This document shows positions 3,653 to 20,362 of a stretch of 20,418 bases of DNA, piece by piece. A program made the translations under genes and the position numbers. How positions within the stretch are numbered: the first letter of the stretch is position 1; the number at the start of each line of letters is the position of its first letter. Below the pieces are notes generated by a model. The model searched no databases. It was not told the DNA's origin and was given only the letters and a program-made list of their open reading frames with translations. Origin of the DNA: a virus; IMG/VR virus record IMGVR_UViG_3300029448_000567, positions 1-20,418 of that record; one strand, 5' to 3'.

Positions 3653-5763
3653 TGTATCATAAAAAGAAAAAGAAATTATCAAAAGAAGAAGAGCATCTAA
3701 TAGCTCAGAATCAGTTTGAACGATATGAGCGTGCCCGTGATAACGGACATACAGAATACATCGACACCGCTAAAAAGTGCGATGCTTTTTACAGGGGTAA
3801 CCAATGGGATCCATCCGATGTGGCAGTTCTCGATGACGAAGGTCGTCCTGCATTAACCATCAACACCATACTTCCTACCGTTAACACTGTTCTTGGGGAA
3901 CAAAGCAATAGAAGAGCTGACATAAGTTTTAAACCTAGAGGTAACGGTAACCAAGCTATAGCAGATGTGCTTACTAAATTGTACTTACAGATATCTGATA
4001 ATAACAAACTACATTGGCTCGAATCACAAGTTTTCGCAGATGGTCTCATTCAAGATAGAGGGTACTTTGATGTCCGTATCGATTTTGATGACCACATTCA
4101 AGGCGAGGTGAGGATAACTACAAAGGACCCACTAGATATCCTCATCGACCCTGATGCAAAAGAATACGATCCGAAAACTTGGAACGAGATATTCGAAACC
4201 AAATGGATGAGCATAGATCAAATAGAAGAGCAGTATGGACAAGAAAAAGCAGATCAACTTAGAACTTCTGCAGAGTACGGCGCTAGCATGGGACAAGATT
4301 CGGTTGAGTATGAAGAAACAAGGTATGGAGATACCTATACCGGAATAGAGTATAACCAATCTGCTACAACTAACCCAGAAGAAAACAGAACACTACGATC
4401 AGTTAGGGTTATTGAACGACAATATTACCAACTCAAAGATTGTATGTTTTACGTAGATAGAGTAACAGGCGACATGCGAACTGTGCCTACTACTTGGGGC
4501 AAACGTAAGAGAGAAAAGTTTGCTGATGATTATGGCTTAGATATTTTAGAAAAGGCTGTACGTAAAGTTCGCTGGACAGTGACTGCAGACTCAGTTGTCT
4601 TACATGACGATTGGTCCCCATATGATTGTTTCACTATAGTTCCTTACTTTCCATATTGGCGAAGAGGTAGACCTTTTGGAATGGTTAGAAATTTAATCTC
4701 ACCTCAAGAACAATTAAATAAAATAAGCTCACAAGAATTACATATCGTAAACACTACAGCTAACAGCGGTTGGATTGTAGAAACCGGGTCATTAAATGGT
4801 ATGACCGCTGACGATTTAGAAGAACACGGTGCGGAAACTGGTTTGGTATTAGAATATAATCGTGGGTCTTCCCCTCCTGCGAAAATACCACCGAATCAGA
4901 TTCCCACCGGCTTAGATAGAATCAGTCAAAAAGCTGCTGCTAACATCAAACAAATTAGTGGTATTAGTGATGCTATGTTGGGTACAGATTCACCAGAGGT
5001 ATCAGGTATTGCTATACAAGCAAAACAAAACCGTGGTGTCTTGATGATACAAGTGCCATTAGATAACTTACAAAAAACCAGACAATACTTAGCAGAACAC
5101 GTCTTACGTTTAGTACAACAGTACTACACTGAAGAAAGAGTTGTGCAGATTACTGATGAGTCAGATCCGTTCAAACAAAGTCAGCCCATGGTAGTTAACA
5201 GACCAACTCCAGAGGGACAGATAATTAATGATTTAACATTAGGTGAGTATGATGTGGTAGTAGCTAGTATACCTACTCGAGACAACTTTGATGAAGTACA
5301 ATTTGCCGAAGCGATACAACTTAGACAAGTTGGTGTACCGATTCCAGATGATTTAATTGTAGAATATTCGCACATGGCTAAGAAAGCTGAAATAGCTCAG
5401 AGAATCCGTATCATGCAAGGTATGGAACCACCATCAGAAGAAGAAGCACAACTTGCTGCTTTCCAAGCGCAAGCTCAAGTACAAAAAATTCAGCTAGAAC
5501 TTGCTAAGATGCAAGCTGAAGTAGAGAACTTACAATCTCAATCACAATTAAATGCGGCTAAAGCGCAGGAATCTGCAGCAGATCCGCAACTTAAGATTGC
5601 TGAGATACAAAGTAAAATGCAGATGAAGCAACAAGAACTTGCCTTACGTCAGGAGTTATCATCATTAACTAATGACATGAGGAAAGGACAGAGTGAAACC
5701 CAAGCAGCATCTAAAATTGCTGTTGAAGCTATGAAACCAAGAGGAGGTACTGACCGTGGCTAA
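3652..5763 (+). CDS. Portal protein, P22 type
   Basis: This 703-residue protein is the probable portal, the dodecameric ring at one capsid vertex through which DNA enters and leaves. The length and motifs fit the P22-type portal family: an N-terminal helical part with AFYRGNQWD and GRPALTINTILPTVNTVLGEQ, the wing and stem region, and an SSQELHIVNTTANSGWIV segment. The DAMLGTDSPEVSGIAIQAKQ segment is very characteristic of these portals. From about residue 590 the chain is Gln/Glu/Ala-rich and coiled-coil-forming (QAQVQKIQLELAKMQAEVEN), like the helical barrel that extends into the head in P22. Translation probably restarts at the TAATG junction with terL, since no strong Shine-Dalgarno is seen. 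The 3' end overlaps the scaffold gene by 8 bases. Confidence 0.93.
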   Translation: MYHKKKKKLSKEEEHLIAQNQFERYERARDNGHTEYIDTAKKCDAFYRGNQWDPSDVAVLDDEGRPALTINTILPTVNTVLGEQSNRRADISFKPRGNGNQAIADVLTKLYLQISDNNKLHWLESQVFADGLIQDRGYFDVRIDFDDHIQGEVRITTKDPLDILIDPDAKEYDPKTWNEIFETKWMSIDQIEEQYGQEKADQLRTSAEYGASMGQDSVEYEETRYGDTYTGIEYNQSATTNPEENRTLRSVRVIERQYYQLKDCMFYVDRVTGDMRTVPTTWGKRKREKFADDYGLDILEKAVRKVRWTVTADSVVLHDDWSPYDCFTIVPYFPYWRRGRPFGMVRNLISPQEQLNKISSQELHIVNTTANSGWIVETGSLNGMTADDLEEHGAETGLVLEYNRGSSPPAKIPPNQIPTGLDRISQKAAANIKQISGISDAMLGTDSPEVSGIAIQAKQNRGVLMIQVPLDNLQKTRQYLAEHVLRLVQQYYTEERVVQITDESDPFKQSQPMVVNRPTPEGQIINDLTLGEYDVVVASIPTRDNFDEVQFAEAIQLRQVGVPIPDDLIVEYSHMAKKAEIAQRIRIMQGMEPPSEEEAQLAAFQAQAQVQKIQLELAKMQAEVENLQSQSQLNAAKAQESAADPQLKIAEIQSKMQMKQQELALRQELSSLTNDMRKGQSETQAASKIAVEAMKPRGGTDRG
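5741..5747 (+). promoter_or_regulatory. Strong ribosome binding site fixing a GTG start
   Basis: GAGGAGG sits eight bases upstream of the GTG at 5756, inside the end of the portal gene. It is the best Shine-Dalgarno match in this part of the operon and decides the scaffold start. Confidence 0.75.
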
Positions 5764-6844
5764 AAAAGATAATACAACTGAAACTGAAGACCTAGTATTC
5801 GATGGAATGCCAGGAGCAGATGCAAAAACTGAAGAGGACGTAGCGCCTTTTCAAGTTGATATGAACTTTGAAGAAGAAAAAGAAGAAGAGGAGACTCAAG
5901 ATGAACAAACCGAAGAGGAAGCTAGCACTGAGGAAGCAACAGAAGAAGTTGCTGAGACAGAAGAGGAAGAAGTTGCAGTTGAAGAACCAGAAGCTACAAC
6001 AGAAGAAGAGCCTACGGAAGAATTACCAGCAGATGATGAACAACCTGTGGAATCAGTGGAGGAAGATGAGGTAGAACCTGCTCCAGAAGCTGCTGAAGTA
6101 GAAGAAACTGTAGAAGAAGAGCCGAAAGCACCAATGGTTCCTAAGTCTAGGCTTGACGAAGTTCTTGCAAAGAACAAAGAAATGCAGAAAAAGCTTCAAG
6201 ATATAGAAAAACAAGAAACTTCAGAAGAAAACAAACTTCCAGAGTTTGATTTTGTTGGCAAAGAGAAGGAATACCAAGAGTTAGTGCTCGATGGTGAGGT
6301 TGAAAAAGCAGCTATTCTTAGAAATGAAATAAGAACAGCTGAAAGAGACCAACTTATGTCTGAAATGCAAAGCAAAATGGGTCAAACCGTTCAACAAGAT
6401 AGAGAACAACATGAGCTACAACAAAAAGCTAGCGAAATAATGGAAGTTTTTCCTATATTTGATGAAAAAAGTAAGTCTTTTGATGAAAAATTAACGCAAG
6501 AAGTTATGGAACTACGTGATGCTTTTATATATCAAGGGTATGGTGCCGCTGATTCTCTAGCAAAAGCTACTGAAGTTACTTTGTTGTCTAAAAAACCAGA
6601 ATTGTTACAAGTTTCAGATGAGCCAGAGGCTGATCCTGCACCTACGTTAACAAAAGCGGTGCAAGAAAAGAAACAAAAGGCTAATGTAAAGAAAAAAGTA
6701 GAAGCTTCTCAAGCACAACCTCCTGCTATGAAGGGTGATGGTGCTAAAGAAAGCAAAGTCGTTAACATAAACACGCTATCTGATGATGAGTTTGGTGCAC
6801 TACCAGAAGAAACTTTAAGAAGATTACGTGGTGACTTTGATTAA
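5756..6844 (+). CDS. Probable scaffolding protein, highly acidic
   Basis: This 362-residue protein lies between the portal and the capsid gene, the usual place for a scaffold that shapes the procapsid and then leaves. Residues about 26-122 are dominated by Glu, with Thr, Ala, Val and Pro, and are surely disordered. From about residue 131 the chain turns to charged coiled-coil helices (LDEVLAKNKEMQKKLQDIEK), then an EYQELVLDGEVEKAAILRNE segment typical of these phage proteins, then a Lys-rich, Pro-containing linker. The tail ends in NTLSDDEFGALPEETLRRLRGD, probably the capsid-binding helix. The GTG start follows a GAGGAGG site. The call rests on position, acidity and helicity, since scaffolds share little sequence. 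A structured non-coding leader follows before the capsid gene. Confidence 0.8.
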   Translation: MAKKDNTTETEDLVFDGMPGADAKTEEDVAPFQVDMNFEEEKEEEETQDEQTEEEASTEEATEEVAETEEEEVAVEEPEATTEEEPTEELPADDEQPVESVEEDEVEPAPEAAEVEETVEEEPKAPMVPKSRLDEVLAKNKEMQKKLQDIEKQETSEENKLPEFDFVGKEKEYQELVLDGEVEKAAILRNEIRTAERDQLMSEMQSKMGQTVQQDREQHELQQKASEIMEVFPIFDEKSKSFDEKLTQEVMELRDAFIYQGYGAADSLAKATEVTLLSKKPELLQVSDEPEADPAPTLTKAVQEKKQKANVKKKVEASQAQPPAMKGDGAKESKVVNINTLSDDEFGALPEETLRRLRGDFD

Positions 6845-6851
6845 AGAGTAG

Positions 6852-6857
6852 TATACT
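6852..6857 (+). promoter_or_regulatory. Possible -10 element for a capsid-specific transcript
   Basis: TATACT matches the sigma70 -10 consensus at five of six positions and lies just past the scaffold stop. Upstream GTGACT (6831-6836) is a four-of-six -35 match but at a short 15-base spacing. If active, transcription would start near 6864 and the RNA would begin just before the first leader hairpin. Evidence is weak. Confidence 0.28.
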
Positions 6858-6863
6858 AATAAG

Positions 6864-7056
6864 AATTCGTACGTTGGAACGAAATCCAACACTGGTCGTT
6901 CAGTATAAAAATCGTTTTTTCGTCTACAGTGACGTTAACTGTTCGAGGTCGTGCTCGTAAAACTAACGGTATCGTGCCCCAACGATAAAGGGTATACGGG
7001 ATATCGCCCCAAATAGCGATTGGTTATTTTTAATTTAATTTTATTTGGAGGGCCTA
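6864..7056 (+). ncRNA. Structured 5' leader of the capsid gene
   Basis: This non-coding stretch holds a run of short hairpins. H1 pairs GTTGGA 6873-6878 with TCCAAC 6885-6890. H2 pairs ACTG 6891-6894 with CAGT 6901-6904. H3 pairs CGTC 6921-6924 with GACG 6931-6934. H4 pairs CGAG 6944-6947 with CTCG 6954-6957 and can be enclosed by CGTTA 6933-6937 with TAACG 6964-6968. H5 pairs TATCGT 6970-6975 with ACGATA 6982-6987. H6 pairs ATCGC 7003-7007 with GCGAT 7016-7020. H1-H5 all have six-base loops. Bases 7009-7014 in the H6 loop (CCAAAT) are exactly complementary to ATTTGG at 7043-7048, which covers the start of the capsid ribosome binding site. The left boundary is assumed. I cannot match it to a named RNA family; a translational control element is inferred. 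Confidence 0.5.
7047..7052 (+). promoter_or_regulatory. Capsid gene ribosome binding site
   Basis: GGAGGG lies four bases before the ATG at 7057, behind an A/T-only spacer (7025-7046). It is a strong site, and its first two bases are complementary to the loop of the preceding hairpin. Confidence 0.8.
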
Positions 7057-8193
7057 ATGGCTAATACAAACTTTAGCGCGTTGACCAGCGAACAGCTTAC
7101 TATCTGGTCTCGTGATTTTTGGAGAGTTGCTAGAAACATGTCCTTCATTAACCAATTTGCGGGTAGTGGACCCAACGCCATGGTTCAAGTAATAAATGAA
7201 CTTACACAATCAGAAAAAGGAGCTAGAGCTGTTTTAACACTTTTAGCTGACATGACTGGTGATGGTATTGTTGGTGACAACACTCTCGAAGGTAATGAAG
7301 AAGCGTTGAGAGCATTCGACATCGTTGTACAACTAGATCAATTAAGATTTGCAAACAGACTATCTGGTAGGCTTGCTGATCAAAAATCTGTTGTCAACTT
7401 CCGTGAGCACTCAAGGGATGCACTTGCATACGCAATGGCAGACAGAATAGACCAAATCGCATTCTTAACCTTGGCTGGTATTTCTTATAACAGAAAGAAC
7501 AACAATATTGGTGGTTCTTCTGCTACAAGACCAGTTTTAGGTTCAGGTGCTAATCTATCTGATCTTGCGTTTAATGGTGATATAACTGCTCCTACTTCTA
7601 ACAGACACAGAAGAGTCGATGCAACTAATGGTTTAGTTGCTGGTGATACTTCTGCTTTAGTTGCTGCTGACACAATGACATACAAAACTATTGTTGAGTT
7701 AAAAGCTTATGCTAAAGATCAATACATTAGAGGTATGAGAGGCAATGGTAATGAAGAGATGTTCCATCTTTTTGTTACTCCACAAGTAATGGCTGATCTG
7801 AAACTAGATTCAGACTTCTTATCTAACGTAAGAAGCGCTGGTATCAGAGGACCAAACAACGAACTATTTGCTGGATCTTCTAGCTTAATGGTTGACGGTG
7901 TCATGGTTCACGAATTCAGACACGTACCAAACACTTCTCAAGGAACTTCTGGTTCTCAGAAAGGTGGATCTGGTAGTGACATTGACTTCGCTGCTTGCTT
8001 ATTCTGTGGAGCTCAAGCTCTTGCTATGGCAGATATCGGTTTACCAGAAATAGTTGAAGACACTTTCGACTATGGAAACCAAAATGGTATCTCTATCGGT
8101 AAGATCATGGGTGTTAAAAAGCCTAAGTACAATTCTGACATTTCTGGTCAGGATGAAGACTTTGGTGTAGTCAGAGTAGATTGCGCATTCTAA
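7057..8193 (+). CDS. Major capsid protein, N4-gp56 family
   Basis: This 378-residue protein is the main shell protein. It shows the hallmark order of the N4-gp56 family: an N-terminal TIWSRDFWRVARN helix, a QSEKGARAVLTLLADMTGDGIVGDNTLEGNEEAL stretch typical of the N arm and E loop, then QLRFANRLSGRLADQKSVVNFRE and the signature DRIDQIAFLTLAG starting at residue 129. The C-terminal half has MHE-type beta strands and ends in FGVVRVDCAF. The start is the ATG at 7057 because GGAGGG precedes it; an in-frame TTG four codons earlier lies within that site. The gene stands alone, with a structured leader in front and a strong terminator directly behind, which fits a need for more transcript than its neighbours. 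Confidence 0.95.
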   Translation: MANTNFSALTSEQLTIWSRDFWRVARNMSFINQFAGSGPNAMVQVINELTQSEKGARAVLTLLADMTGDGIVGDNTLEGNEEALRAFDIVVQLDQLRFANRLSGRLADQKSVVNFREHSRDALAYAMADRIDQIAFLTLAGISYNRKNNNIGGSSATRPVLGSGANLSDLAFNGDITAPTSNRHRRVDATNGLVAGDTSALVAADTMTYKTIVELKAYAKDQYIRGMRGNGNEEMFHLFVTPQVMADLKLDSDFLSNVRSAGIRGPNNELFAGSSSLMVDGVMVHEFRHVPNTSQGTSGSQKGGSGSDIDFAACLFCGAQALAMADIGLPEIVEDTFDYGNQNGISIGKIMGVKKPKYNSDISGQDEDFGVVRVDCAF

Positions 8194-8201
8194 TTAAGAT
8201 T

Positions 8202-8230
8202 GGGGTGGTCTTAGGGCCACCCCCTTCTTT
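8202..8230 (+). terminator. Intrinsic terminator behind the capsid gene
   Basis: GGGGTGGTC (8202-8210) pairs with GGCCACCCC (8215-8223) in a 9-bp stem with one G-U pair and a UUAG tetraloop. CTTCTTTT follows. It begins 8 bases past the capsid stop and ends before the next gene's ribosome binding site (AGGAG, 8236-8240), so part of the transcription should stop here and the rest read through. Confidence 0.85.
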
Positions 8231-8246
8231 TAAACAGGAGTTATAA

Positions 8247-8495
8247 ATGGCAGAGCAAGAAATAAAAAAAATGTTAGTAAAAGCTAGTGAAGATGTTTAC
8301 GTAGCTTTAACCACTGGTGATGCAGTTAGACTAGAAGCTGGAGAAACAAGAGAGTTTCCTGACTACATAGCGTATGCCTGCATACAAGCTGGGTGCACTG
8401 AAGTAAAAGAAGCACCTAAGAAAATGGAAGAACTTATCGAAGAAACTAAGGAGAAACCTAAAAAGACTACAAAAAGTAAAAAAGTAGAAGAGTGA
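8247..8495 (+). CDS. Small protein after the capsid gene, unknown function (82 aa)
   Basis: I do not recognise a named family in this 82-residue protein. The first 50 or so residues look like a small folded domain (EDVYVALTTGDAVRLEAGET, then FPDYIAYACIQAGCTEV). The last 30 are a Glu/Lys-rich tail with repeated EETKEKPKK-like charge and are probably extended. AGGAG at 8236-8240 precedes the ATG at a good distance. It is the first gene after the capsid terminator and ends three bases before the next start, so it belongs to the neck gene cluster. Its place suggests a capsid-associated or head-completion role, such as a decoration or stabilising protein, but this is inference from position only. 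Confidence 0.75.
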   Translation: MAEQEIKKMLVKASEDVYVALTTGDAVRLEAGETREFPDYIAYACIQAGCTEVKEAPKKMEELIEETKEKPKKTTKSKKVEE

Positions 8496-8498
8496 TAA

Positions 8499-9185
8499 AT
8501 GGCAGGGACATTACAAGGGCAACATATTCTTTCGAGAGTCCAGAACATCTTACAAGATAATACAAATGTACGATGGACAGAAGGCGAACTTTTAGATTAT
8601 TTGAATGATGGTCAAAGAGAAATTGTTAATCTTCGTCCTGATTCTACCGCTACTCATTCTAATGTTTCTTTATCCGCAGGAACTGAACAGTCTATCCCAA
8701 CTGACGGGTTACGTTTAATTAAAGTTGTAAGAAATATGTCTGGGACAGGTACCGATGCAACTGGTGCTAGAACTATAAGACTTGTTGATTTTGAAGCTAT
8801 AAATACTTTTGAACCTAGTTGGCATGATCCTACAGTAACAGGGGATGCAGCCCACGGTACACAGGTAAAACATTATATGTTTGATATAAGAGACCCACGT
8901 AAATTTTATGTTTACCCTGGAGTTTCTGGTAGTGCGTACGTAGAAGTGGTGTATTCTAAGAACCCAACTAATTTAACTGCGGGTACAGATTTAATTCAAG
9001 TAGATGATATTTTTGCAAATGCGTTAATTAATTTTGTTTTGTATAGAGCATTTTTAAAAGAATCAGAGTATGCTGCTAATTTAGCAACATCGGGATCGTA
9101 TTATCAGTTGTTCGCACAAAGTTTAGGAGTAGGGCAGCAAGCTGGAGATATTAATGAACCTAAAGCGGGGGTAGCTAGTGGCTAG
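8499..9185 (+). CDS. Neck/head-tail adaptor-like protein (DUF6682-like)
   Basis: This 228-residue protein looks like the phage adaptor family usually listed as DUF6682, found behind capsid genes of short-tailed phages. The tell-tale pieces are an N-terminal helix pair with LSRVQNILQDNTNVRWTEGE and LDYLNDGQREIVNL, a DGLRLIKVVRNM segment, HYMFDIRDPRKFYVYPGV, and a C-terminal helix with DDIFANALINFVLYRAFLK. It would sit under the portal and link the head to the tail or seal the neck. The start follows the upstream stop by three bases, with a modest AGAAGAG site. The end overlaps the next gene by 8 bases. The fold call is from remembered family patterns, not a search. Confidence 0.75.
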   Translation: MAGTLQGQHILSRVQNILQDNTNVRWTEGELLDYLNDGQREIVNLRPDSTATHSNVSLSAGTEQSIPTDGLRLIKVVRNMSGTGTDATGARTIRLVDFEAINTFEPSWHDPTVTGDAAHGTQVKHYMFDIRDPRKFYVYPGVSGSAYVEVVYSKNPTNLTAGTDLIQVDDIFANALINFVLYRAFLKESEYAANLATSGSYYQLFAQSLGVGQQAGDINEPKAGVASG

Positions 9186-9855
9186 TTTTGAATCGTTAGT
9201 AAAAGATGTATTACCGTATGTGCCGGGATGTCCTGATAGTTTAATTCAAACTAATATACGTTCGGCAGCTATTGAACTATGTGAAAAAAGTAAGGCGTTT
9301 ACATTTGATTTAGACCCAATAACTACTATATCTGGTGCATATGAATACGAGTTTGACCAGCCCAGCGGCACGGAGGTGCATCAAATTTTATGGGCAACTT
9401 ACGATGGACATGACTTAGATCCTATTAGTCCAAGAAGTTTAGAACTTAATTACCCCGATTGGAGGGATAAAACAGGTACTCCTACTGTGTATCTACAAAA
9501 AACTGTTAATACTTTTTGGCTAGTGCCTGTGCCCAATGACGGTAAAGAACTTTTAGTAAATGTTGCATTAAAACCCACTAGAACTACCAGCAGTATTGAT
9601 ACTGAATTTAGCAATACGTATAGAGACGGAATTATATATGGCACGATTTTTAGATTATTAAGAATACCGCAAAAAGGATGGACAGACCCCATAGCTTCAG
9701 CTGATTACTTTAATTTGTTCCAAGCTGAAATTGCTGATGCTGAGTTAAAAGGACGTGGTGGAGATACCGGAGTTAAAAGAACAGTAAAATATAAAAGCGC
9801 AGGGCTAAGCCCGAGAAAGAGGTACGGTCGTTATGGCAGGGAGCTTGACTATTAG
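9178..9855 (+). CDS. Neck/tail-junction structural protein
   Basis: This 225-residue protein resembles a common short-tailed-phage virion protein encoded next to the adaptor. It opens with FESLVKDVLPYVPGCPDSLI and an RSAAIELCEKSKAFTFDLDP helix. It continues with a beta-rich middle (YEYEFDQPSGTEVHQILWAT and TVNTFWLVPVPNDGKELLVN), and a late RDGIIYGTIFRLLRIP helix. The two proteins probably sit together at the neck: similar length and similar N-terminal helix plus beta layout suggest a shared fold. The GTG start at 9178 overlaps the previous stop by 8 bases, and the gene overlaps the next by 23 bases. The last 25 residues are basic (RTVKYKSAGLSPRKRYGR). Which exact neck position it holds is not clear. 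Confidence 0.65.
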   Translation: MASFESLVKDVLPYVPGCPDSLIQTNIRSAAIELCEKSKAFTFDLDPITTISGAYEYEFDQPSGTEVHQILWATYDGHDLDPISPRSLELNYPDWRDKTGTPTVYLQKTVNTFWLVPVPNDGKELLVNVALKPTRTTSSIDTEFSNTYRDGIIYGTIFRLLRIPQKGWTDPIASADYFNLFQAEIADAELKGRGGDTGVKRTVKYKSAGLSPRKRYGRYGRELDY

Positions 9856-10276
9856 AGGAGTGGTATTCGAACGTATTCCTTTAGAGGATATACGAGCTGC
9901 TTACACAAATATAGAATCAGATCTCTACGAAGTAACGAAGAGATCTCATGCGGACTGGATACCTGCGGATGTATATTCTGCTTTACGTAATGGTAGTGCG
10001 GACTTATATGTAGTGTATAAAGACGAAGAATATGCAGGCTTTTTAGTTACAACAACGTTGACTGACTTTGGAGGAGAAAAAACTTTATTTATTTGGGTAG
10101 GTTATAGCGTGCCTAAGTATAATATAATAAGTGAAGGGTTTGAGTTTGTAGAAAGACTTTCTGAGAACTTAAACATAGTTGGAATAGAATTTCATTCCAG
10201 CCGTCTTGGATGGATTAAGACGGGAACTAAGCATGGATATAAAGCTGTAACACAAGTATTTAGAAAAGAGTTATAA
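9833..10276 (+). CDS. GNAT-like protein in the virion operon
   Basis: This 147-residue protein has the layout of a GNAT (Gcn5-related acetyltransferase) fold: an N-terminal helix pair (DIRAAYTNIESDLYEVTKRS), beta strands (DLYVVYKDEEYAGFLVTTTL), a mid strand (KTLFIWVGYSV), and a C-terminal GWIKTGTKHGYKAVTQVFRK like the last motif of GNATs. The acetyl-CoA loop (R/Q-x-x-G-x-G/A) is not visible, so it may be a GNAT-derived structural protein rather than an enzyme. T7 gp13, encoded among virion genes, is a known related case. The ATG at 9833 has GAGG (9819-9822) ten bases upstream and overlaps the previous gene by 23 bases. Either catalysis on virion or host proteins, or a role in assembling the ejection proteins that follow, is possible. 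Confidence 0.6.
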   Translation: MAGSLTIRGVVFERIPLEDIRAAYTNIESDLYEVTKRSHADWIPADVYSALRNGSADLYVVYKDEEYAGFLVTTTLTDFGGEKTLFIWVGYSVPKYNIISEGFEFVERLSENLNIVGIEFHSSRLGWIKTGTKHGYKAVTQVFRKEL

Positions 10277-10278
10277 AC

Positions 10279-10920
10279 ATGTCTAGCGGACCTAAACAAA
10301 AAGATTATGAGCCTAGTGAAACTGAAAAAACTCAGGCTAGAATAGCTGCAGAAGAACAACGTTACTTTGAACAGACTTATCAACCTTTGTTTTTAAAACA
10401 AATGGAAGAGTCTCAAAAAAGAGATTTAACTCCTACTTTTACCGGTAGAGCTCAGGCAGATAGCATGCAAGCTCTTACTGGGCGAGGAGCAGATGTTGGT
10501 GCAGCTTTTAATATAGGTGATGCTGCTAATATAGCTAGTGGTGCTATATCTAATATTGCTAGTGGTAGAACAGCAGCTGAAAAAGCTGAAACTGGAGATA
10601 AGCTAAACGCACTAAGTCAAAGTTTAGGGTTAGGGGCGGCTGCTTCTAGTGGGTTAGCACAAGCAGGAAGACTTGCAGCTTCTGAAGGTTTAAGTAGAGC
10701 TAGGGCTAAACAACAAGTTAGACTAGCTAGAAATGATGCCATATTTAAAGGAGTAAAAGCTGCGGCTACTATGGGTATGGGTAACCTAGCCAGCGGCGGT
10801 AGTTTTTCTAGCGGTGTAAGTCAAATGCAAGACCCTGAAACAGGAAAACTTGGATCGGTACGTACAAACTTTTTTGGTACCCCTGACATGAGTACTTTTG
10901 AGCTTTATAAGAATAACTAG
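10279..10920 (+). CDS. Probable internal virion (ejection) protein, 213 aa
   Basis: No family is recognised with certainty. Residues about 1-55 are charged and helical (EEQRYFEQTYQPLFLKQMEE), which resembles the start of small ejection-type proteins of marine podovirus genomes. The rest is rich in Ala, Gly and Ser with many short helices (AANIASGAISNIASGRTAAE, LGLGAAASSGLAQAGRLAAS) and a GMGNLASGGSFSSG stretch, as in T7 gp14 and P22 gp7-like internal proteins that enter the host envelope. The start follows the GNAT gene by two bases with an AAAAGAG site. Its place directly before two more such proteins supports a shared ejection complex. The assignment is by composition and position only. Confidence 0.55.
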   Translation: MSSGPKQKDYEPSETEKTQARIAAEEQRYFEQTYQPLFLKQMEESQKRDLTPTFTGRAQADSMQALTGRGADVGAAFNIGDAANIASGAISNIASGRTAAEKAETGDKLNALSQSLGLGAAASSGLAQAGRLAASEGLSRARAKQQVRLARNDAIFKGVKAAATMGMGNLASGGSFSSGVSQMQDPETGKLGSVRTNFFGTPDMSTFELYKNN

Positions 10921-11479: not shown

Positions 11480-13651
11480 ATGGCTACATTTTTTGACGCA
11501 ATAAGACAGGGCGCAGTTAAGAGAATAGACGATGCAATTCGTGGAGCTGAGTACAATCGACTTTTAGATACAAATACTAGAGAACAAGCAGCATCACGAT
11601 TAGCATCTGGACAAGAAGAATTACGTGTCTTAGCCCAAGGAGCAGTTGAAAAAGCAGGATTGGATGGGGTTTCTGAAGATTTAAAAAACTTTGCAACTGG
11701 GAAAAATCCTTACTTTAATTCTAAAGTGCTACAGGAAGTTGACTCTCTAGCGGGCGATAGCTTTAACGCTACCGCCTTTTTAAATGATACTTTGTTTTCT
11801 CCTGCTGCAACTGGGAATAATCGTACCGCATTGGCAGGGTTTGGGTTAGATTTTGACAAACAAGAAGTTGCCTTAGACCTTATGTCAAGAACTCCTCAGG
11901 GAGTAGTACAAGCCCCCGTAACGCAAAACGGACAAAAATATGCAGAGGGCGGGCAACCCATAGGCTTAAAGATAGGCGAGCTTGATAGAATGTTAAATGC
12001 TTACCAAACTAATTTAACACCATCAGTGAGAGGTTTAACTGGAGGGTTTAGTTTGACTGATCCTAATGCTTCGGCTCCAGGTGCTGGTCCAACAAAACCT
12101 GCTCTGGTTAAAAAGCTAGAGGAAGATTCTGACTATCAGTTAACCAAAGAAGAAGAAGCTCAACTTTTAAAAGATCCGTATGTAAAAAAACTTTTTGAAG
12201 ATCAAAATATAAATTCAGTTGAGGATTTAGGTAAGCCTGGTACTTTTAACAATACAGGTCAGGCTTTAAACTTAAACAGACAAAACATAGAGGAGTCTTT
12301 ACGAGAGGGCGAAGGATTTCAATATGATTTTGAAGTTGATGGTAAAGACAGAACATTTACTTTCGATAACAAGAGAGGGAAACCTATCGGTAAAAATTTA
12401 GGAATTTTGTTAACGCCTTCTGACCCTTTAAGACAAAAAGGGTATAAAAGAATCTTTACTACTGAGAAAATAGCTGAAAAATTAGGAGTAAGCGTTGAGA
12501 AAGCAAAAGAGTTTGAGAAACTTTTGTATGATAAATCTGTTAGAAATTTATCTATAAACAGACCGTTTAAAGATGATCCTCAAGATTGGCTATTAGAAAA
12601 TGTTAGCCCAGAGTTATTAGAATCAAAATCTAAACTTTTTAAAAGAAGTTCTAGTAGCCCGATTGGTAGAGCTATCGCTACTAATGCTTTAGTTAAAGAA
12701 ATTGCCGGTGGGCCGGGTAAGGTCAATCTTAAATTCGGAACTCCTGAATTAACAAATGAAGAAAAAGAGGACATCAAAGCAGCCAAGAATAAAAACGTTA
12801 GCCAAGATACTGTTGCTAATATTATTAGAAAAGCAGTTGAAAAAGCAGGATCGGATGGGGTTGCTGATTTATCTTATTTACCACGTGAGGCTAGAACTAA
12901 TTTGTATTTCCAAACTCTAACAGGTATTAACCCTGAATTAAAAAACGATCCTAACTTTTGGAAAAGTATGAACTCATTACTTGGTACTGGGTACTTACCA
13001 GTGCAATTAGATTTATTTAAAGAGTCAGCAGCTAACAGAAGGGTGGCTACGCAAGCGGCTCAGAATGAAAGACAAGATTTACGTAATTTTACAACTAACA
13101 CTGCTTTTACACTAGCTAGAGACGAATCAGCTAAATATTCTATTATGGATGCGGGTAAGTTAGAAGATGAAATAATTAGAGATAACTTTCAAAACCAACT
13201 TAGCCTTTGGAATACTTTTCTAGACACAGATGCAGATACAGTAGCGCGAATAAAAGCAGCACAACCTATTACTGATAATTTTTTAACTGCTATAGTCAAT
13301 GGCCAAACTAAGAGAGGGTTTGAGGGCTTTCTGCAAAGTTTCTTTAAAGGAGAGGCAAGAACAGGACCTTTCGACTCCTCTAATGTAAAAGTTCTTATGA
13401 CTGTTAATACGCCAGAGGGTATCGTGCAACTAAGGGATGATGCCAAAAGTAGAAAAATAGCCCAAGCTTTACTAGATAACGTTAGAGGTTATTCAGTAGA
13501 AAGCATAGAAAGAGTAACCGCCGGTGGTAGCCAAAGAGGAGCAACTCTGACCGCAGGAGAATTAGCTGGTTTTGGGGACAAAGTTATTCCTTATTTACTA
13601 GGTAACGCTATGATTCAAGGTGAAAGAATTGCAAAAGCACAGAGTAGATAA
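11480..13651 (+). CDS. Large virion protein, probable ejection component, 723 aa
   Basis: No family is recognised with certainty. The protein is long and mostly soluble: no signal peptide or membrane span is seen. It has alpha-rich, charged stretches (EKIAEKLGVSVEKAKEFEKL), a Pro/Gly-poor middle, and a C-terminal part with DKVIPYLLGNAMIQGERI. A 36-bp near-exact DNA repeat (11641-11676 and 12832-12867, 34 of 36 identical, same frame) encodes AVEKAG(L/S)DGV(S/A) twice, about 400 residues apart. The stop TAA directly abuts the ATG of the giant gene, so they are almost surely co-translated. By size and place it could match the T7 gp15-like middle ejection protein, with the giant protein in the gp16-like place; this is an analogy of order, not of sequence. 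Confidence 0.6.
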   Translation: MATFFDAIRQGAVKRIDDAIRGAEYNRLLDTNTREQAASRLASGQEELRVLAQGAVEKAGLDGVSEDLKNFATGKNPYFNSKVLQEVDSLAGDSFNATAFLNDTLFSPAATGNNRTALAGFGLDFDKQEVALDLMSRTPQGVVQAPVTQNGQKYAEGGQPIGLKIGELDRMLNAYQTNLTPSVRGLTGGFSLTDPNASAPGAGPTKPALVKKLEEDSDYQLTKEEEAQLLKDPYVKKLFEDQNINSVEDLGKPGTFNNTGQALNLNRQNIEESLREGEGFQYDFEVDGKDRTFTFDNKRGKPIGKNLGILLTPSDPLRQKGYKRIFTTEKIAEKLGVSVEKAKEFEKLLYDKSVRNLSINRPFKDDPQDWLLENVSPELLESKSKLFKRSSSSPIGRAIATNALVKEIAGGPGKVNLKFGTPELTNEEKEDIKAAKNKNVSQDTVANIIRKAVEKAGSDGVADLSYLPREARTNLYFQTLTGINPELKNDPNFWKSMNSLLGTGYLPVQLDLFKESAANRRVATQAAQNERQDLRNFTTNTAFTLARDESAKYSIMDAGKLEDEIIRDNFQNQLSLWNTFLDTDADTVARIKAAQPITDNFLTAIVNGQTKRGFEGFLQSFFKGEARTGPFDSSNVKVLMTVNTPEGIVQLRDDAKSRKIAQALLDNVRGYSVESIERVTAGGSQRGATLTAGELAGFGDKVIPYLLGNAMIQGERIAKAQSR
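11641..12867 (+). repeat. 36-bp near-exact repeat pair inside one gene
   Basis: Bases 11641-11676 and 12832-12867 match at 34 of 36 positions. The differences are T/C and T/G. Both copies read in the same frame and encode AVEKAG(L/S)DGV. Similarity drops at once outside the block. Confidence 0.8.
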
Positions 13652-16600
13652 ATGGCTACAAATGAAATTTTATCTTCACTTTTCAAACAAGAGCAGGCAG
13701 AACGAGAAACTCGGTTAGCTACTGATCCCTCTCTTAGAGAAAAGCTTGACCCTACAGCACCTGCAATACAAACAAGTCCCGCATCTATTGGTGAAATATT
13801 CTCTGCTGGGTTTGATGTCGGAGTAGATCAGCTAGAGGGGGATGTTAATAGGGCGAAAGCAATAGGTAACTTACTTATTGGTAATGATGCGGCTGCAAAA
13901 AGAAATCTACAAAAAGCTCAATTTGATGATGAGGAAGCAGCTAGAGTATTAGAAGGGTTAGCTGGTTTTGATCAATTTTTAGAAGAGCCCACTTTTGACG
14001 GTTTTTCTGAGCAAGTAACTAAAAGTATAGGTCAATTTACTCCCCTTGCTTTAACTTCAGTCGCCTCTGGTTTTACTGGAGCTCTCGTAGGGTTGTTAGG
14101 TAGAGGGGCGTTTACCGCTAGCTCTAGAGCGGGAATGAAAGAGTTATTCTCAGGAGCACTAAAGAAAAAATCTTTACAGCAGACTTTGAGCCCAGAAGAG
14201 AAAGTTATTTTAGATGGGGCGTATGGTGTAAGCCGTTTTGCAAAAGGGGGCGCTATAGTAGGTGCTTTTGGGCAAGAGCAGTTGATAGGTTCGTCTCAAG
14301 CTTTGGCTGAGTTCCAAGACGCGGGCAGAGAAATTACTGCAGACGAAGCTGCAGCTGCTACAGCTTTAGGTGTACCTCAAGCTATTTTAGGTACGTTATC
14401 AGAGTCTTTATTTGCAAGTTCATTGTTAAAATTATCTTTTCGTAAATCTAGACTTGGTGCAGTTCAACAAAAACAAGCTACTGGAAGAAAGTTGAATGGG
14501 GATGAAGAACGTTTATTAGCTATCTCTGCAAAAAGACAACGTGGCGAATTCTTAACAAAAGCGGAAGATGACATTTATAGGGCCTCAATAAATCCGGGAC
14601 CTTACTTTGGTAATCTTATGAAAGATGTGGCAAATGCTACTGCTGCTTCTTCTGTGGCTGAGGGTGTAACGGAACTAGGGCAAGAAGAAATACTTATCCA
14701 ACAAAGAAAAAATTTAGATCCCGAGTACTCAGATCAAGAGGCTGCGTTACGTAGAGCAGAATCTGCTTTTGCTGGTTTCTTTGCTGGGGGTGCTAGGTCA
14801 GCTGTTGCTTCTCCTGTTTCTAGTGTATTTAATACAGCTAGGCAGCAGTTGCAAAACGTTAGAGAAAATCAGGTGTATGCTAATTTAAGAGAAGAACAAT
14901 ACGGGCCTATGTCTGGTATGCCTATACCTGAGACCGAAAAACAAGTAGATGTTCAGATAACTGCTCTAAAACAAGGTCAAAAGAACGCTATGTATATCCC
15001 AGAGGGGACAGAACTTTCTTCTGATATTAAAACTAAATTAAGAAACGCAGGAGTAACCGATGCAAACTCTATTACAGTTGAGGGTATTGGTACCTTTGTT
15101 ACAAACAATACTGATAAGTTCGCTATCTTAAGTAAGGCACAAGCCGAAAATAGATTATTAGATAATTCTTTCTTAGCTTCGTTTTTAGATTATTCAAATG
15201 TGGGTCGTCCTATGGATGATCTTGTAGTCATTGTTAAAGAACCGACTACGGGTGAAATAATTGAACAACAAACTACAGATCCAGACGGTGTAGCTCTAGC
15301 CGAAAGTAATTTTAGAGAGAGATATGGCCCGGATGTAATTATAGAAACAGTAATAAGTGAAGAAGCAGTAGCTGATAAAAAACAAAGCCAAGACGTTGAA
15401 GTTAGAGGCGAAGGTGGGTTTACTGTTGATTTAGATGACCCAGAAATACAACAAGCAATTGCAGAAGGAGACTTACCAAATTTTGCCCAAGAACTTGGTA
15501 TCGAAGAAGAGTTTGGTATGTCAACAGCTTTGGATGATGAGACTGGATTTGTGCAAGTTGAAAAAAATCTTCCAAAATCAGGTAAAAAGAAAGGTGAGAT
15601 TGATACGTATAACATTATTTCACCAGAGGACTTTGAGAATTATTCTGAAGAAGCAAAGACTAGAATTACTGAAAAAAGACAAAAAGTATTAGACGGCCTT
15701 ACGGCTAAAAGAGAAGTAATGGAAGGGTTTGGGGTAGAGGAAGCTTTTGTACCCCAAGCAACTAAAGATTTAATAAATACTTTAAATGAAGGGGCTTTAG
15801 ATAAGTATCTAACGTTAATTGACAGATCTCCCACAGCTGATTTGTCTTTTGTTTTAGGAGATGATAACAAAGTAAGAATAAGGTTTGTTGCTCAACCTGG
15901 AGCTACCCGTATTTCTGAAAAAACCGAATTTAATTTGGTACAAGAAGCTTTCCAAAAAGCGAGACAAGATGGTTATAGTGATAGAAATAAAACTGTTTCC
16001 ATACGTACAGAAAGCCCGGAGTTTGCTTGGTTTGCAAGGATACCAAACGCTGTTGCTAACCGTGATGCGCAAGAAGTTTATGTAGGTAGGAATACTTTTA
16101 ATTATTCAACAACAGATAAACCGTTAAACATGAACAGGTTGTTAAAAGCTGGAAGAGCCTTATGGGCAAGAGAAACAGACCCTGTGACTCGAAGACAATT
16201 TAGTTACCAACAGCAACTAGTACTAGGGCTTGGTACTATACTTCCTTTTTTAAAACAGAGTGGCGACAGATCCGATGCATCAGGTCAATTTCTTTCTGAT
16301 AGCAAGGGCCAACCAATTGAAATACTTCATGTAGATAAAACGACTGGAGAGATTAGCAATCTAGCAGAGTTAACTGATGCACAAGCACGTGCAATAAAAA
16401 TTTGGTATGACCCAGTACAGAAAAAATATTTAAGTCTAGGCGAACTAAACTTAATTGGTAGAGAAGATTTAGACGGTAGTTCTCTTAGCGTAGACGTTAA
16501 TTTTGCCGATAGGATTAAAAAAATAGCAGCTAAAATCGTAGGTGCAAATATTTCTGTGCAAGGTATTCAAGGCAGAGAAACTTTTACTAGTTTAAGAGGG

Positions 16601-19600
16601 GAAGGTATTGGTACAGCTGCAAAAAATTTAGCTAGGTTTGATCCCGGAACTGTTGATTTATTCAGAGTGTCAATTCCAAAAAATGGAACAGTTACAGTAA
16701 ATATAGCTGGGCGTGACATCGTTGTAAAAAATAATGACATTGTAGACACATCTATTAGAAATGAAGTGCAAGCATTACAAGGTCTGCCACGTTTTACTAA
16801 AGTTCCAGAAGGAGAGCCTATTGTAGCTAAGACCGGAAATGTTGTAAGTAGCATTAATTACAAAGAAGTTGCAGATTTTATAGACAATGATTTTGCCGAG
16901 CTTCTTGCTGATAGCCAAGTATTTAATAAAACACTTTTTAACAATGTGTTTGTGCCAAATTTTGTAGAAAGAAGTTTTGAAGGCGATTTTCTTAAAAACC
17001 CAGATTTTGGAGCTTTCGAGGGAGCGCCAGCATTAACTGACATAGACCGTGCTACGTTTATTGATGAGTTAGAAAGCTTTGCGGAAAGGCAGGGGGTAAT
17101 TTTAGATCCTAGAGCAGATAGAACTGACGAGGAAACCGCTGATGTAAATGTTCCTGGAGTTGGCTCTAATTTAGAAATAGAAGCTGGTATTTTAGAAGGG
17201 CTAAGAATAGAGGATGTACCGTTAACTTATATAAATGTAACCGACACTACAGAAAACATTCAACTGCAAAGAGACCTTACTCAAGATAGTTTGAATCAAC
17301 CTTCTCGTAGAGCCCCTAGAGAAACTTTTGCGGAGCGTAAAAAAAGAGCAGAAGGTAAGGTAAAAGAGATAGATGTAAAAGGCATAAGATTTTCTAAAGG
17401 TGTTGCGGCTATGTTTACCAGAGCAGAAGATAGCTCAGTGCCGTATGAACAAAGAAGATTTCAAGGAGTGGATACAACTCCTGCTGTACTGTCGGGGTAT
17501 AAAGCGGTGTTGGACATGTTAGGTTTAAAAAGAGACTCGATTGTTATTACATCTACGGATGATAGCTATAGCATGAACATCGAAGCTAAATTTACAACTC
17601 CAGATGGTAAGACAATCGAAGGTATAGGACAGGTAAACAACTTTATAAGAAAACAACAAGCGGAGTTAGAAAATAACACTGACCCTGAAAATTTGGCACA
17701 GATATTAAAGTTTGGTAACAAAGATATTGTTATTTTAAAAGATTTTGCCGCAGGGGAATTGACTAACGGTAACCCTAAAGAAGATGCTGTTTACAGAAGA
17801 TTTTTATCTTTAGGTCATGAGTTTGGACACTCTTACTTGTTTCAAGAATTAGATAACATACAAGGCAAACCTATATTTGATAGGCTGTATAAGGCTTATG
17901 AGAAAGCTATAGCAGGTGAAAACCCACCTCCATCCTATTTAGGTAAGTATGGTTTTGAAGAGTTTTTATCAGATCAATTTAGTTTAGCCTCTATTGAACG
18001 ATTAAATGATGTGAAACCTACTACCGTTGAAGCTGGGTTTTTCCACAAGCTTGTTAAAAAGTTAGAAACTTTCTTTAAATCGCTTACAGGATTTTTACAA
18101 CAACGTTACGGACAAGGGGTAACTCCAGAGTTTAATCAGTTTTTACAAACCACTGCTAATAGATTTAAAACAGCTCCTGCTAAAAACAACGCTATGGGGT
18201 ATTTAGGAGAGATTGAAATACGTAATGCAGTAGGAGAAATTAAAAATACTGTTAATAATTGGTTAGGTGGTAGAAAAACTATTAACAAGTTAAATAAATC
18301 TGTGAAAGATTCAATGTCAACAAAAGATACTACTACGTTGTTAGAGAAAGCTTATTGGCTATCTTCTTTTATATTTTTGCCTGCGCATAATCATTTGTTG
18401 GCTCAAAGAAAAAGAGTTTCAAGCACTAAAGAAAAAAATATTATTAAAAATTTAGCAGATCAAGCGTATATCTCATCTAAAGAAAGGGGTAGAGGGTACT
18501 TAAATAACCACCCTAATGCGCACTCTGAAAAAGTAAATGAACTACTTTCTATACCTGAGTTAGCTATAGAGGACCCTATGAATCCTACGCAAGCTGAAAT
18601 GAAAAGATTAAATGATGTGCTATTAGCAGCTGAGCCTAGTGTGGCTACTACTCAGTTAGGTCCAGAAGCAACAGCAGTTAGAAGTTTCTTACAAAACTTT
18701 TGGCTTACAGTCTTAAAAGAAAATGATGTAGGTTTTAGAGAAAACTTTTTCCCAAGGGCTTTAGATATCTTTGAGCTCATGGCTAACCCAACTAAACAAG
18801 CAGCGTTGGTTGATTTGTTAAATGAGTACAATCCTAAAAAAGCCAATGAGCGTAATTTTAGTTTTGAAAAAGTAGTCGCTGAATTAATTAAAGAAGAGAG
18901 TGATGCTACTCTTGATAACTTAGAAGGTCAGACAGAAGAAGCAGTTTCAGATGTAGCTGTTGGTTCAAATAGAGAACGTACCGAGTATTTTAAAAACATA
19001 CCTAACGAAAGACTTAGAGAAATTGGAGTGCTTAAAGCACCAGTTGAAAGTATGTTGGAATATATTAACTCAATGATTAAAAGAACTGAATACAACAAAG
19101 CTTTTAAGTACCCACTTGATGGTTTAAGTCCACAAGCTAGAGCAGTTTTACAAGAAAGGGATATTACTTTTACTAGAAAAGCAGCCAACCCAGAGGGATT
19201 TTTAGAAGGTTGGAAAGCAGTAGAAGCACAACTAGCAGAAATATCTGATCCTAAAGTTAGACAAGAAGCTAGGAATACTATGAGAGCTATGATTGGTAAA
19301 TCTGATACTACTATGAAGCCAGTGTTTAGAAACGTTAATAGTTTCTTTTTGACATTAAACGTAGTTACTTATTTAACTTTTGCGCCTTTGGCTTCTTTTC
19401 CAGATGCAGCTGGGCCAGTGTTGTTCTCAGGAGATTATAGAGCTGTAACACAAGATTTAGTGAAGGTAGTTAAAGAATACGCTAGCGGTAAACAAGGTAG
19501 AGATAGATTACGAAAACTTTCTTTAGATATTGGAGTGAATTCTGCTAGTGCTTTACACATGTTTTACGTCAACGCTGCAGAACAAAACTACGTAGGCCCT

Positions 19601-20362
19601 ACAGCTAGACGTATTCAAGACATATTTTTTAAAGTAACTGGTTTAGAAGGCTTCACTCGTTTTATGAGAATATATGCTGCAGGTATGGCGGAAGCTTTTA
19701 TGATTAGAGCTGCAGAAGGAGCTAAAGAAGGAGATACTATTTTAGCTAGACAGTTAGAATCTTTAGGTTTAACACCTCAAGAAGTAGAGGCTTGGCAAAA
19801 AGATGGGGGTGATTTCTCTAGGCACGCAAAGGTAAAAGAGGCACACGCTAAGTTTGTTGATGAGTCTTTAGTTAGACCGAATGCAGCAGAAAGACCTGCT
19901 TGGGCTTCTAGTCCTTACTTTGCTCTTATCTGGCAATTGAAGTCGTTCTTTTATGCTTACGGTAAAAATATTATGATGGGTCTCTACAGAACTTCCAAGT
20001 TACGTGGGCAAGAGGCAGGTCTAACTGCAGCCTCTGCTCCTTTATTTTTAGGTATGGTAACCTTGCTACCTTTGACTATGGTTGGGTTAGAACTTAGAGA
20101 ATTTATAAAATACTTAGCAGGAGGAGGAGACGCAGCTAAATTAAGAACTAATAATATGAATTGGGGCGAGTATAGTTTTGAAATATTAGATAGATCGGGA
20201 ACTTTAGGTCCTTTTGGATTATTAGTCCCAGCAATAGAAGCAGAGAGGTATGGAGATGAGTTTTGGATTTCTCCTTTAGGGCCTACTGCAGAAAGATTTG
20301 AAGATTTAATACAAGGAGAGTTAAAACTGAAAGATATAACTCCAGTGCTCTCTGCGTTATAA
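13652..20362 (+). CDS. Giant internal virion/ejection-type protein with metallopeptidase motif, 2236 aa
   Basis: This is by far the largest gene. Its place after three probable ejection proteins, its size and its hydrophobic ends fit a T7 gp16-like or polyvalent internal protein that is injected with the DNA. Residues about 128-152 are hydrophobic (PLALTSVASGFTGALVGLLG), as is a stretch near 228-262, followed by VTELGQEE and an Ala/Gly-rich AFAGFFAGGARSAVAS. A zinc-metallopeptidase signature is HEFGH at 1389-1393, with EEFLSDQ at 1436-1442 as probable third ligand. Later come FFLTLNVVTYLTFAPLASFP (about 1895) and a near-terminal hydrophobic segment (PLFLGMVTLLPLTMVGLEL, about 2129-2147). The WASSPYFALIWQLKSFFYAY segment resembles the end of other giant phage internal proteins. 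No transglycosylase or RNA polymerase motif is seen. The ATG abuts the previous TAA. Confidence 0.75.
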   Translation: MATNEILSSLFKQEQAERETRLATDPSLREKLDPTAPAIQTSPASIGEIFSAGFDVGVDQLEGDVNRAKAIGNLLIGNDAAAKRNLQKAQFDDEEAARVLEGLAGFDQFLEEPTFDGFSEQVTKSIGQFTPLALTSVASGFTGALVGLLGRGAFTASSRAGMKELFSGALKKKSLQQTLSPEEKVILDGAYGVSRFAKGGAIVGAFGQEQLIGSSQALAEFQDAGREITADEAAAATALGVPQAILGTLSESLFASSLLKLSFRKSRLGAVQQKQATGRKLNGDEERLLAISAKRQRGEFLTKAEDDIYRASINPGPYFGNLMKDVANATAASSVAEGVTELGQEEILIQQRKNLDPEYSDQEAALRRAESAFAGFFAGGARSAVASPVSSVFNTARQQLQNVRENQVYANLREEQYGPMSGMPIPETEKQVDVQITALKQGQKNAMYIPEGTELSSDIKTKLRNAGVTDANSITVEGIGTFVTNNTDKFAILSKAQAENRLLDNSFLASFLDYSNVGRPMDDLVVIVKEPTTGEIIEQQTTDPDGVALAESNFRERYGPDVIIETVISEEAVADKKQSQDVEVRGEGGFTVDLDDPEIQQAIAEGDLPNFAQELGIEEEFGMSTALDDETGFVQVEKNLPKSGKKKGEIDTYNIISPEDFENYSEEAKTRITEKRQKVLDGLTAKREVMEGFGVEEAFVPQATKDLINTLNEGALDKYLTLIDRSPTADLSFVLGDDNKVRIRFVAQPGATRISEKTEFNLVQEAFQKARQDGYSDRNKTVSIRTESPEFAWFARIPNAVANRDAQEVYVGRNTFNYSTTDKPLNMNRLLKAGRALWARETDPVTRRQFSYQQQLVLGLGTILPFLKQSGDRSDASGQFLSDSKGQPIEILHVDKTTGEISNLAELTDAQARAIKIWYDPVQKKYLSLGELNLIGREDLDGSSLSVDVNFADRIKKIAAKIVGANISVQGIQGRETFTSLRGEGIGTAAKNLARFDPGTVDLFRVSIPKNGTVTVNIAGRDIVVKNNDIVDTSIRNEVQALQGLPRFTKVPEGEPIVAKTGNVVSSINYKEVADFIDNDFAELLADSQVFNKTLFNNVFVPNFVERSFEGDFLKNPDFGAFEGAPALTDIDRATFIDELESFAERQGVILDPRADRTDEETADVNVPGVGSNLEIEAGILEGLRIEDVPLTYINVTDTTENIQLQRDLTQDSLNQPSRRAPRETFAERKKRAEGKVKEIDVKGIRFSKGVAAMFTRAEDSSVPYEQRRFQGVDTTPAVLSGYKAVLDMLGLKRDSIVITSTDDSYSMNIEAKFTTPDGKTIEGIGQVNNFIRKQQAELENNTDPENLAQILKFGNKDIVILKDFAAGELTNGNPKEDAVYRRFLSLGHEFGHSYLFQELDNIQGKPIFDRLYKAYEKAIAGENPPPSYLGKYGFEEFLSDQFSLASIERLNDVKPTTVEAGFFHKLVKKLETFFKSLTGFLQQRYGQGVTPEFNQFLQTTANRFKTAPAKNNAMGYLGEIEIRNAVGEIKNTVNNWLGGRKTINKLNKSVKDSMSTKDTTTLLEKAYWLSSFIFLPAHNHLLAQRKRVSSTKEKNIIKNLADQAYISSKERGRGYLNNHPNAHSEKVNELLSIPELAIEDPMNPTQAEMKRLNDVLLAAEPSVATTQLGPEATAVRSFLQNFWLTVLKENDVGFRENFFPRALDIFELMANPTKQAALVDLLNEYNPKKANERNFSFEKVVAELIKEESDATLDNLEGQTEEAVSDVAVGSNRERTEYFKNIPNERLREIGVLKAPVESMLEYINSMIKRTEYNKAFKYPLDGLSPQARAVLQERDITFTRKAANPEGFLEGWKAVEAQLAEISDPKVRQEARNTMRAMIGKSDTTMKPVFRNVNSFFLTLNVVTYLTFAPLASFPDAAGPVLFSGDYRAVTQDLVKVVKEYASGKQGRDRLRKLSLDIGVNSASALHMFYVNAAEQNYVGPTARRIQDIFFKVTGLEGFTRFMRIYAAGMAEAFMIRAAEGAKEGDTILARQLESLGLTPQEVEAWQKDGGDFSRHAKVKEAHAKFVDESLVRPNAAERPAWASSPYFALIWQLKSFFYAYGKNIMMGLYRTSKLRGQEAGLTAASAPLFLGMVTLLPLTMVGLELREFIKYLAGGGDAAKLRTNNMNWGEYSFEILDRSGTLGPFGLLVPAIEAERYGDEFWISPLGPTAERFEDLIQGELKLKDITPVLSAL

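Follow-up and report, generated by a model that had tools for sequence, protein, structure and literature searches.

A predicted gluzincin-type domain before the helical core of a giant ejection-type protein from an IMG/VR phage

The last gene of a 20,418-nucleotide stretch of viral DNA (IMG/VR record IMGVR_UViG_3300029448_000567, hereafter the window) encodes a giant protein in which a first-pass annotation, made from the sequence alone, had noticed a zinc-metallopeptidase signature. What would a peptidase do inside a protein that appears to be ejected with the phage DNA? The giant gene is located after the portal, capsid and adaptor genes and is directly preceded by virion-module genes for proteins of 213, 184 and 723 aa (Table 1); in one relative (L002), tail-fibre-like genes come after it. 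Judging from gene order, the 723-aa protein, whose place is taken in relatives L001 and L002 by proteins of 680 and 700 aa, may occupy the place of a T7 gp15-like ejection protein. Elsewhere in the window, two adjacent genes (8499-9855) match the SU10 adaptor family (E 6.8e-35 and 3.7e-12) and form a tandem neck/adaptor pair. A 147-aa protein of the virion module (9833-10276), whose gene overlaps the upstream one, belongs to phrog_610 (unknown function); it looks like a GNAT acetyltransferase by eye and has no Pfam match.

Table 1. Predicted features of the giant gene and of the gene directly upstream, in window coordinates.
Feature	Position	Strand	Basis
723-aa protein directly upstream of the giant protein	11480..13651	+	No significant Pfam match
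2236-aa giant internal-virion/ejection-type protein	13652..20362	+	ORF; C-terminal part matches PHROGs virion structural families
N-terminal module, residues about 60-420	13829..14911	+	Gly/Ala-rich; hydrophobic stretch 131-149; family-wide conservation
Variable middle, residues about 421-1261	14912..17434	+	No Pfam match in the window protein
Zincin-like metallopeptidase domain, residues ~1262-1506	17435..18169	+	47-sequence alignment, AlphaFold2 model, structural neighbours
HEFGH: predicted zinc ligands H1389 and H1393, predicted catalytic E1390	17816..17830	+	H, E, G and H invariant in 47 sequences
EFLSD: predicted third zinc ligand E1437, with D1441 (ExxxD)	17960..17974	+	E and D invariant in 47 sequences
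Linker between zincin and C-terminal core, residues 1507-1560	18170..18331	+	pLDDT mostly under 50; conservation dip 1501-1560
All-helical C-terminal ejection-protein core, residues about 1561-2236	18332..20359	+	Homology and fold resemblance

Translation of the ORF places HEFGH at residues 1389-1393 and EEFLSDQ at residues 1436-1442 (ending at 17977), exactly where the first-pass annotation had read them. The protein contains 11 His and a single HExxH. Among its shuffled versions, 0.5% contain HExxH and 0.2% contain HExxH followed by ExxxD, but conservation of the motif in relatives, collected stepwise from IMG/VR contigs, is more telling than these shuffles. Seven residues are invariant in ten sequences with 20-55% identity to the window, namely the H, E, G and H of HExGH, one Ala, and the E and D of ExxxD. 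An alignment of 47 sequences (17-48% identity to the window protein within the zincin region) leaves H1389, E1390, G1392, H1393, E1437 and D1441 as the sole invariant columns of the domain. On this sequence evidence, the signature of the window protein is that of a gluzincin, HExGH...ExxxD. EEFLSDQ had been proposed as the source of the third ligand. The motif keeps this role, the predicted ligand being its second Glu, since E1437 (44 residues past H1393) is invariant and E1436 is replaced by Arg or Asp in some relatives (YREWFADQ in L014, DEWFADQ in phage phiA008).

Because one of the steps that gathered relatives used motif patterns, a check for motif bias was run. All 68 loci that match the pattern of the Glu motif and lack LGHEFGH carry HExGH; five further loci (L059, L062, L093, L099 and L100) carry HEALGH, which is of the HExxxH form. 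A motif-independent set was obtained by gathering loci through the C-terminal module alone, and both His lie at the expected place in 69 of its 72 ORFs long enough to be judged. As far as these sequences tell, the HExGH motif of the relatives is no search artefact. This set also rules out that all relatives keep the zinc site: the ligands are lost in three proteins, where the motif reads HEIGE (L141), HELGE (L144) or KELGN (L177), and a His replaces the ligand Glu in L177. These three proteins exceed 3000 aa, two of them carry NADAR domains, and their domains look like pseudo-zincins; catalysis would therefore be dispensable in some lineages. Relatives of the window zincin are common in aquatic phages, and two pattern scans of 84,980 bacterial and archaeal genomes found none.

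Domain-sized sequence around the motif had suggested a full zincin-like domain. Such a domain, of ~200-250 aa, is supported by the 47-sequence alignment, by an AlphaFold2 model built from it and by structural neighbours led by zincins. The model (residues 1224-1513; pLDDT 81.6, pTM 0.76) displays the zincin order of helices and strands. HEFGH (model positions 166-170) falls within helix 154-180, in agreement with the helical context read from the sequence, and E214 and D218, which correspond to E1437 and D1441, are within helix 211-228. Most of the best rows of a VIA-align comparison with solved structures are zincins, with Z at most 4.9; M61 aminopeptidase, M9 collagenases, a SprT-type domain and M34 peptidases are among them, as are a Bacteroides putative metallopeptidase and toxin-type zincins. 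Foldseek against the PDB gave no E below 0.1 and a list led by CorA helices; the fold assignment therefore rests jointly on the model, the motif and the VIA-align ranking. In the comparison with predicted viral structures, an unnamed piece of 971 residues ranks first (E 3.4e-9), and a polyvalent-type protein appears further down. Pfam matches of the 47 members are weak but repeated for Peptidase_M78 (24 members) and M32 (16), and weak for M48, DUF2268 and ATLF (two each); five of the 47 touch the phrog_87 metallo-protease family. A profile search of the PDB gave weak matches at the HExxH helix only (IrrE with E 0.48, stromelysins, reprolysins), and single-sequence searches returned nothing useful from Pfam, from PDB sequences or, with the zincin alone, from cultured phages. 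Together, alignment and model support well the prediction of a catalytically equipped zincin inside the giant ejection-type protein.

The label "giant ejection-type protein", also given at first pass, fits the rest of the chain. This identity is well supported by sequence and modelling because the C-terminal core shares homology with virion proteins of LUZ24-like and KPP25-like phages and bears a resemblance to internal virion and ejectosome proteins of T7 type. A 948-residue model (pLDDT 76.6) comprises the zincin, an unreliable stretch at 1507-1560 and the all-helical core (~700 aa). The core aligns with the phiM1 ejectosome protein 8vb2 (Z 6.7 over 270 residues) and with the E1004 core protein 9vvp (Z 5.1 over 248 residues), values of Z ~5-7 that, as the aligner itself warns, may reflect common arrangements of helices in a helical core. 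More weight is carried by the sequence homology to virion proteins and by the BFVD matches of the core to internal virion protein C/D and internal core protein (E about 1e-9 to 1e-5). Other BFVD relatives of the core are named "large polyvalent protein associated domain" proteins.

When 22 members are aligned over their full length, the N-terminal module (here about 60-540) is conserved and the middle (about 600-1260) varies; after these come the zincin, a dip at 1501-1560 and a strongly conserved end. The zincin core is among the better-conserved parts in the conservation profile. In 61 complete ORFs, 788-1081 aa (median 808) separate the first His of the motif from the C-terminus, whereas 836 to 2545 aa lie on its N-terminal side. 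As the C-terminal distance is near-constant and the N-terminal length variable, the zincin forms a fixed border before the core; residues 1507-1560 behind it are a candidate cleavage region. Compared with its counterpart in L001 (IMGVR_UViG_3300020440_000213, 4263-10421), the giant protein of the window shows 92-100% identity over most of residues 351-2050, in contrast to 22-60% over residues 1-150 and 54-64% over 1001-1100; this uneven identity suggests recombination within the giant gene.

Pfam recognised no second enzyme in the window protein. Upstream of the zincin, several longer relatives carry an AlkB-like 2OG-Fe(II) oxygenase at residues 1575-1730 (L028, 4544-12970), a 2OG oxygenase, DUF7831 and NADAR between 1253 and 1635 (L018, 3755-13249), NADAR with a YspA/SLOG-DprA-type domain (L144), or NADAR (L177), and SNase and helix-hairpin-helix domains were found in the scan of the 22 members. 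The AlkB-like, NADAR and SLOG cargo probably serves counter-defence or repair.

The following model can be proposed, to which we give a probability of about one half. The gluzincin-type domain (ligands H1389, H1393 and E1437, base E1390) of a polyvalent podoviral ejection protein would most likely cut the giant protein itself. The chain of this protein would run from an N-terminal module through variable cargo and the zincin to a helical ejection core of T7 type. The zincin would act in cis or between neighbouring copies, with cuts falling in its weakly conserved flanks, at about residues 1150-1260 or 1507-1560. During assembly or after ejection, the N-terminal/cargo part would then separate from the C-terminal core. 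The analysis shows the signature and its conservation, the predicted fold and the fixed location in front of the core, whereas zinc binding, activity, substrate and timing are what we infer for the window zincin. Self-processing is favoured by the fixed border position, the variable upstream cargo, the poorly ordered downstream linker and the example of P1 DdrB, which is processed before packaging and whose zincin is the proposed autoprotease (PMC5512222). Counting against it are the N4 virion RNA polymerase, which is packaged unprocessed (PMC5512222), the three of 72 relatives without ligands and the modest fold scores; moreover, no conserved cleavage site was recognised.

It seems rather unlikely that the zincin is an injected effector, which would cleave host proteins of the envelope, defence or transcription after ejection and would not be needed for processing of its own chain. 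Iyer et al. named such a role as an alternative (PMC5512222), and the location of the zincin within an ejection-core protein, beside AlkB-like, NADAR or SLOG cargo in relatives, is consistent with it. However, both the location and the occurrence of effector domains tend to vary, whereas this one retains both His in 69 of 72 relatives at a near-fixed distance from the core, and no data suggest a host substrate. Self-processing thus appears likelier than an attack on host proteins.

A mainly structural role, as a folding or packing unit whose peptidase activity is minor or lost, is considered unlikely. In N4, domain C1 contacts the polymerase; the zincin-bearing region of N4 is required for encapsidation though the protein stays whole (PMC5512222); the three relatives with HEIGE, HELGE or KELGN keep the domain, and the conservation of its core would suit such a unit. 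What this role fails to explain is that the six active-site residues are the sole invariants among 47 sequences as divergent as 17-48% identity.

Very improbable is a zincin that aids the crossing of the periplasm or cell wall in place of the T7 gp16 transglycosylase, or that cuts another virion protein in maturation: Pfam and PHROGs detected no transglycosylase in the giant protein or in the preceding 723-, 184- and 213-aa proteins, as the first-pass annotation had remarked of the former, nor was a lysozyme domain detected in the scanned proteins, and some BFVD relatives of the core are named transglycosylase or phage-lysozyme proteins, but the window ends with the giant gene, so that a wall hydrolase may be encoded elsewhere, and to our knowledge HExxH gluzincins of this kind are not peptidoglycan hydrolases.

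A wider, tentative reading is that the T7-type ejection proteins of aquatic podoviruses regularly include a zincin of a distinct and widespread clade. This zincin would be fixed between the core and swappable counter-defence or repair cargo (AlkB-like, NADAR, SLOG, SNase), would release this cargo in the host and would have become a pseudo-peptidase in a few large-cargo lineages. Should the zincin release injected cargo from the ejection channel, such phages would possess a self-cleaving delivery device, and the upstream regions of hundreds of environmental phage genes would constitute a catalogue of injected counter-defence enzymes.

The gene order of T7 is similar to that of the window. The likeness to T7-type ejectosome and core proteins (phiM1, E1004) concerns part of the helical core and is structural and modest; unlike T7 gp16, the window protein has no N-terminal lytic transglycosylase detectable with Pfam or PHROG. 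We know of no zincin in T7-type ejectosome or core proteins, and the open papers, which cover the field in part, nowhere described a metallopeptidase within internal virion proteins of T7 type. Homology of the C-terminal core extends to the giant protein of phiR18/KPP25 (hhalign E 4.7e-45) and to the gene 51 product of the LUZ24-like phage tf (hhalign E 6.2e-23). The tf protein differs in having 1021 aa and no HExxH, and the zincin is therefore not required by the core as such. This gene 51 product is a virion structural protein similar to LUZ24 gp50 by annotation only; seven proteins of tf have close homologues among the virion proteins of LUZ24, in whose particles mass spectrometry detected nine proteins (PMC3517423). 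The phiR18 protein (LC102729.1) carries HESMH at residue 1334, 774 aa from its C-terminus. Its zincin region gave no significant alignment with the window family and may be a zincin of another kind that occupies the equivalent position in front of the shared core.

The window protein is best read as a phage "polyvalent protein" with its own predicted metallopeptidase, a plan already known from earlier phage giants. The domain is less unusual than the first pass implied: no domain is commoner than the zincin in the polyvalent proteins of phages and plasmids, where zincins fall into 12 clades and where autoprocessing was proposed among several functions (Iyer et al. 2017, PMC5512222), and the zincin of the N4 polymerase is comparably placed (PMC12633501). 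Like the proteins of Iyer et al., the window protein is very large and multidomain, and its HExxH is followed by a Glu in the conserved helix that comes next. Some of their zincins have an HExxxH variant (PMC5512222), as do the HEALGH loci described here, and cargo enzymes share the single chain, here in relatives L018, L028, L144 and L177. On the other hand, AlkB, NADAR, SNase and SLOG are absent from the text of PMC5512222. No Pfam LPD or polyvalent-MPTase model matched the whole window protein (E up to 1) or its N-terminal 416 residues, zincin and C-terminal pieces (E up to 10), an absence that is compatible with the wider kind, these models being subfamily-specific.

N4 gp50, the virion RNA polymerase, is likewise a giant ejected protein with an N-terminal module, an enzymatic middle, an HExxH domain (C1) and a large, mostly helical C-terminal domain (C2) (PMC12633501). 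Unlike gp50, the window protein has no detectable polymerase: no T7-like single-subunit RNA polymerase before the zincin was matched by Pfam in residues 397-1246 or in the whole protein. The N4-type zincins compared mostly read HE[LM][IV]H-like...NEFMA[WY], as against HExGH...ExxxD in the window family. Between the two zincin profiles, local similarity is weak and confined to the HExxH helix (E 0.0043, probability 8%), and the C-terminal domains give no significant profile match to C2; kinship to N4 C1/C2 is thus unsupported by profiles beyond this helix.

A cultured counterpart is provided by Aeromonas phage phiA008, which has a complete genome and an Aeromonas host. Its pA_gene0066 product (2050 aa) has the same architecture and the same zincin, HELGH...DEWFADQ (hhalign E 6.3e-16), with only 20% identity in the zincin region. 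Unlike in the window protein, its N-terminus looks SNase-like (DGDTI...RLYGID), and an SNase match appeared in the scan of the 22 members. Together with the pseudo-zincins of L141, L144 and L177, phiA008 makes testable whether phage zincins act on their own chain, on the host or structurally, a question that dates from 2017 (PMC5512222).
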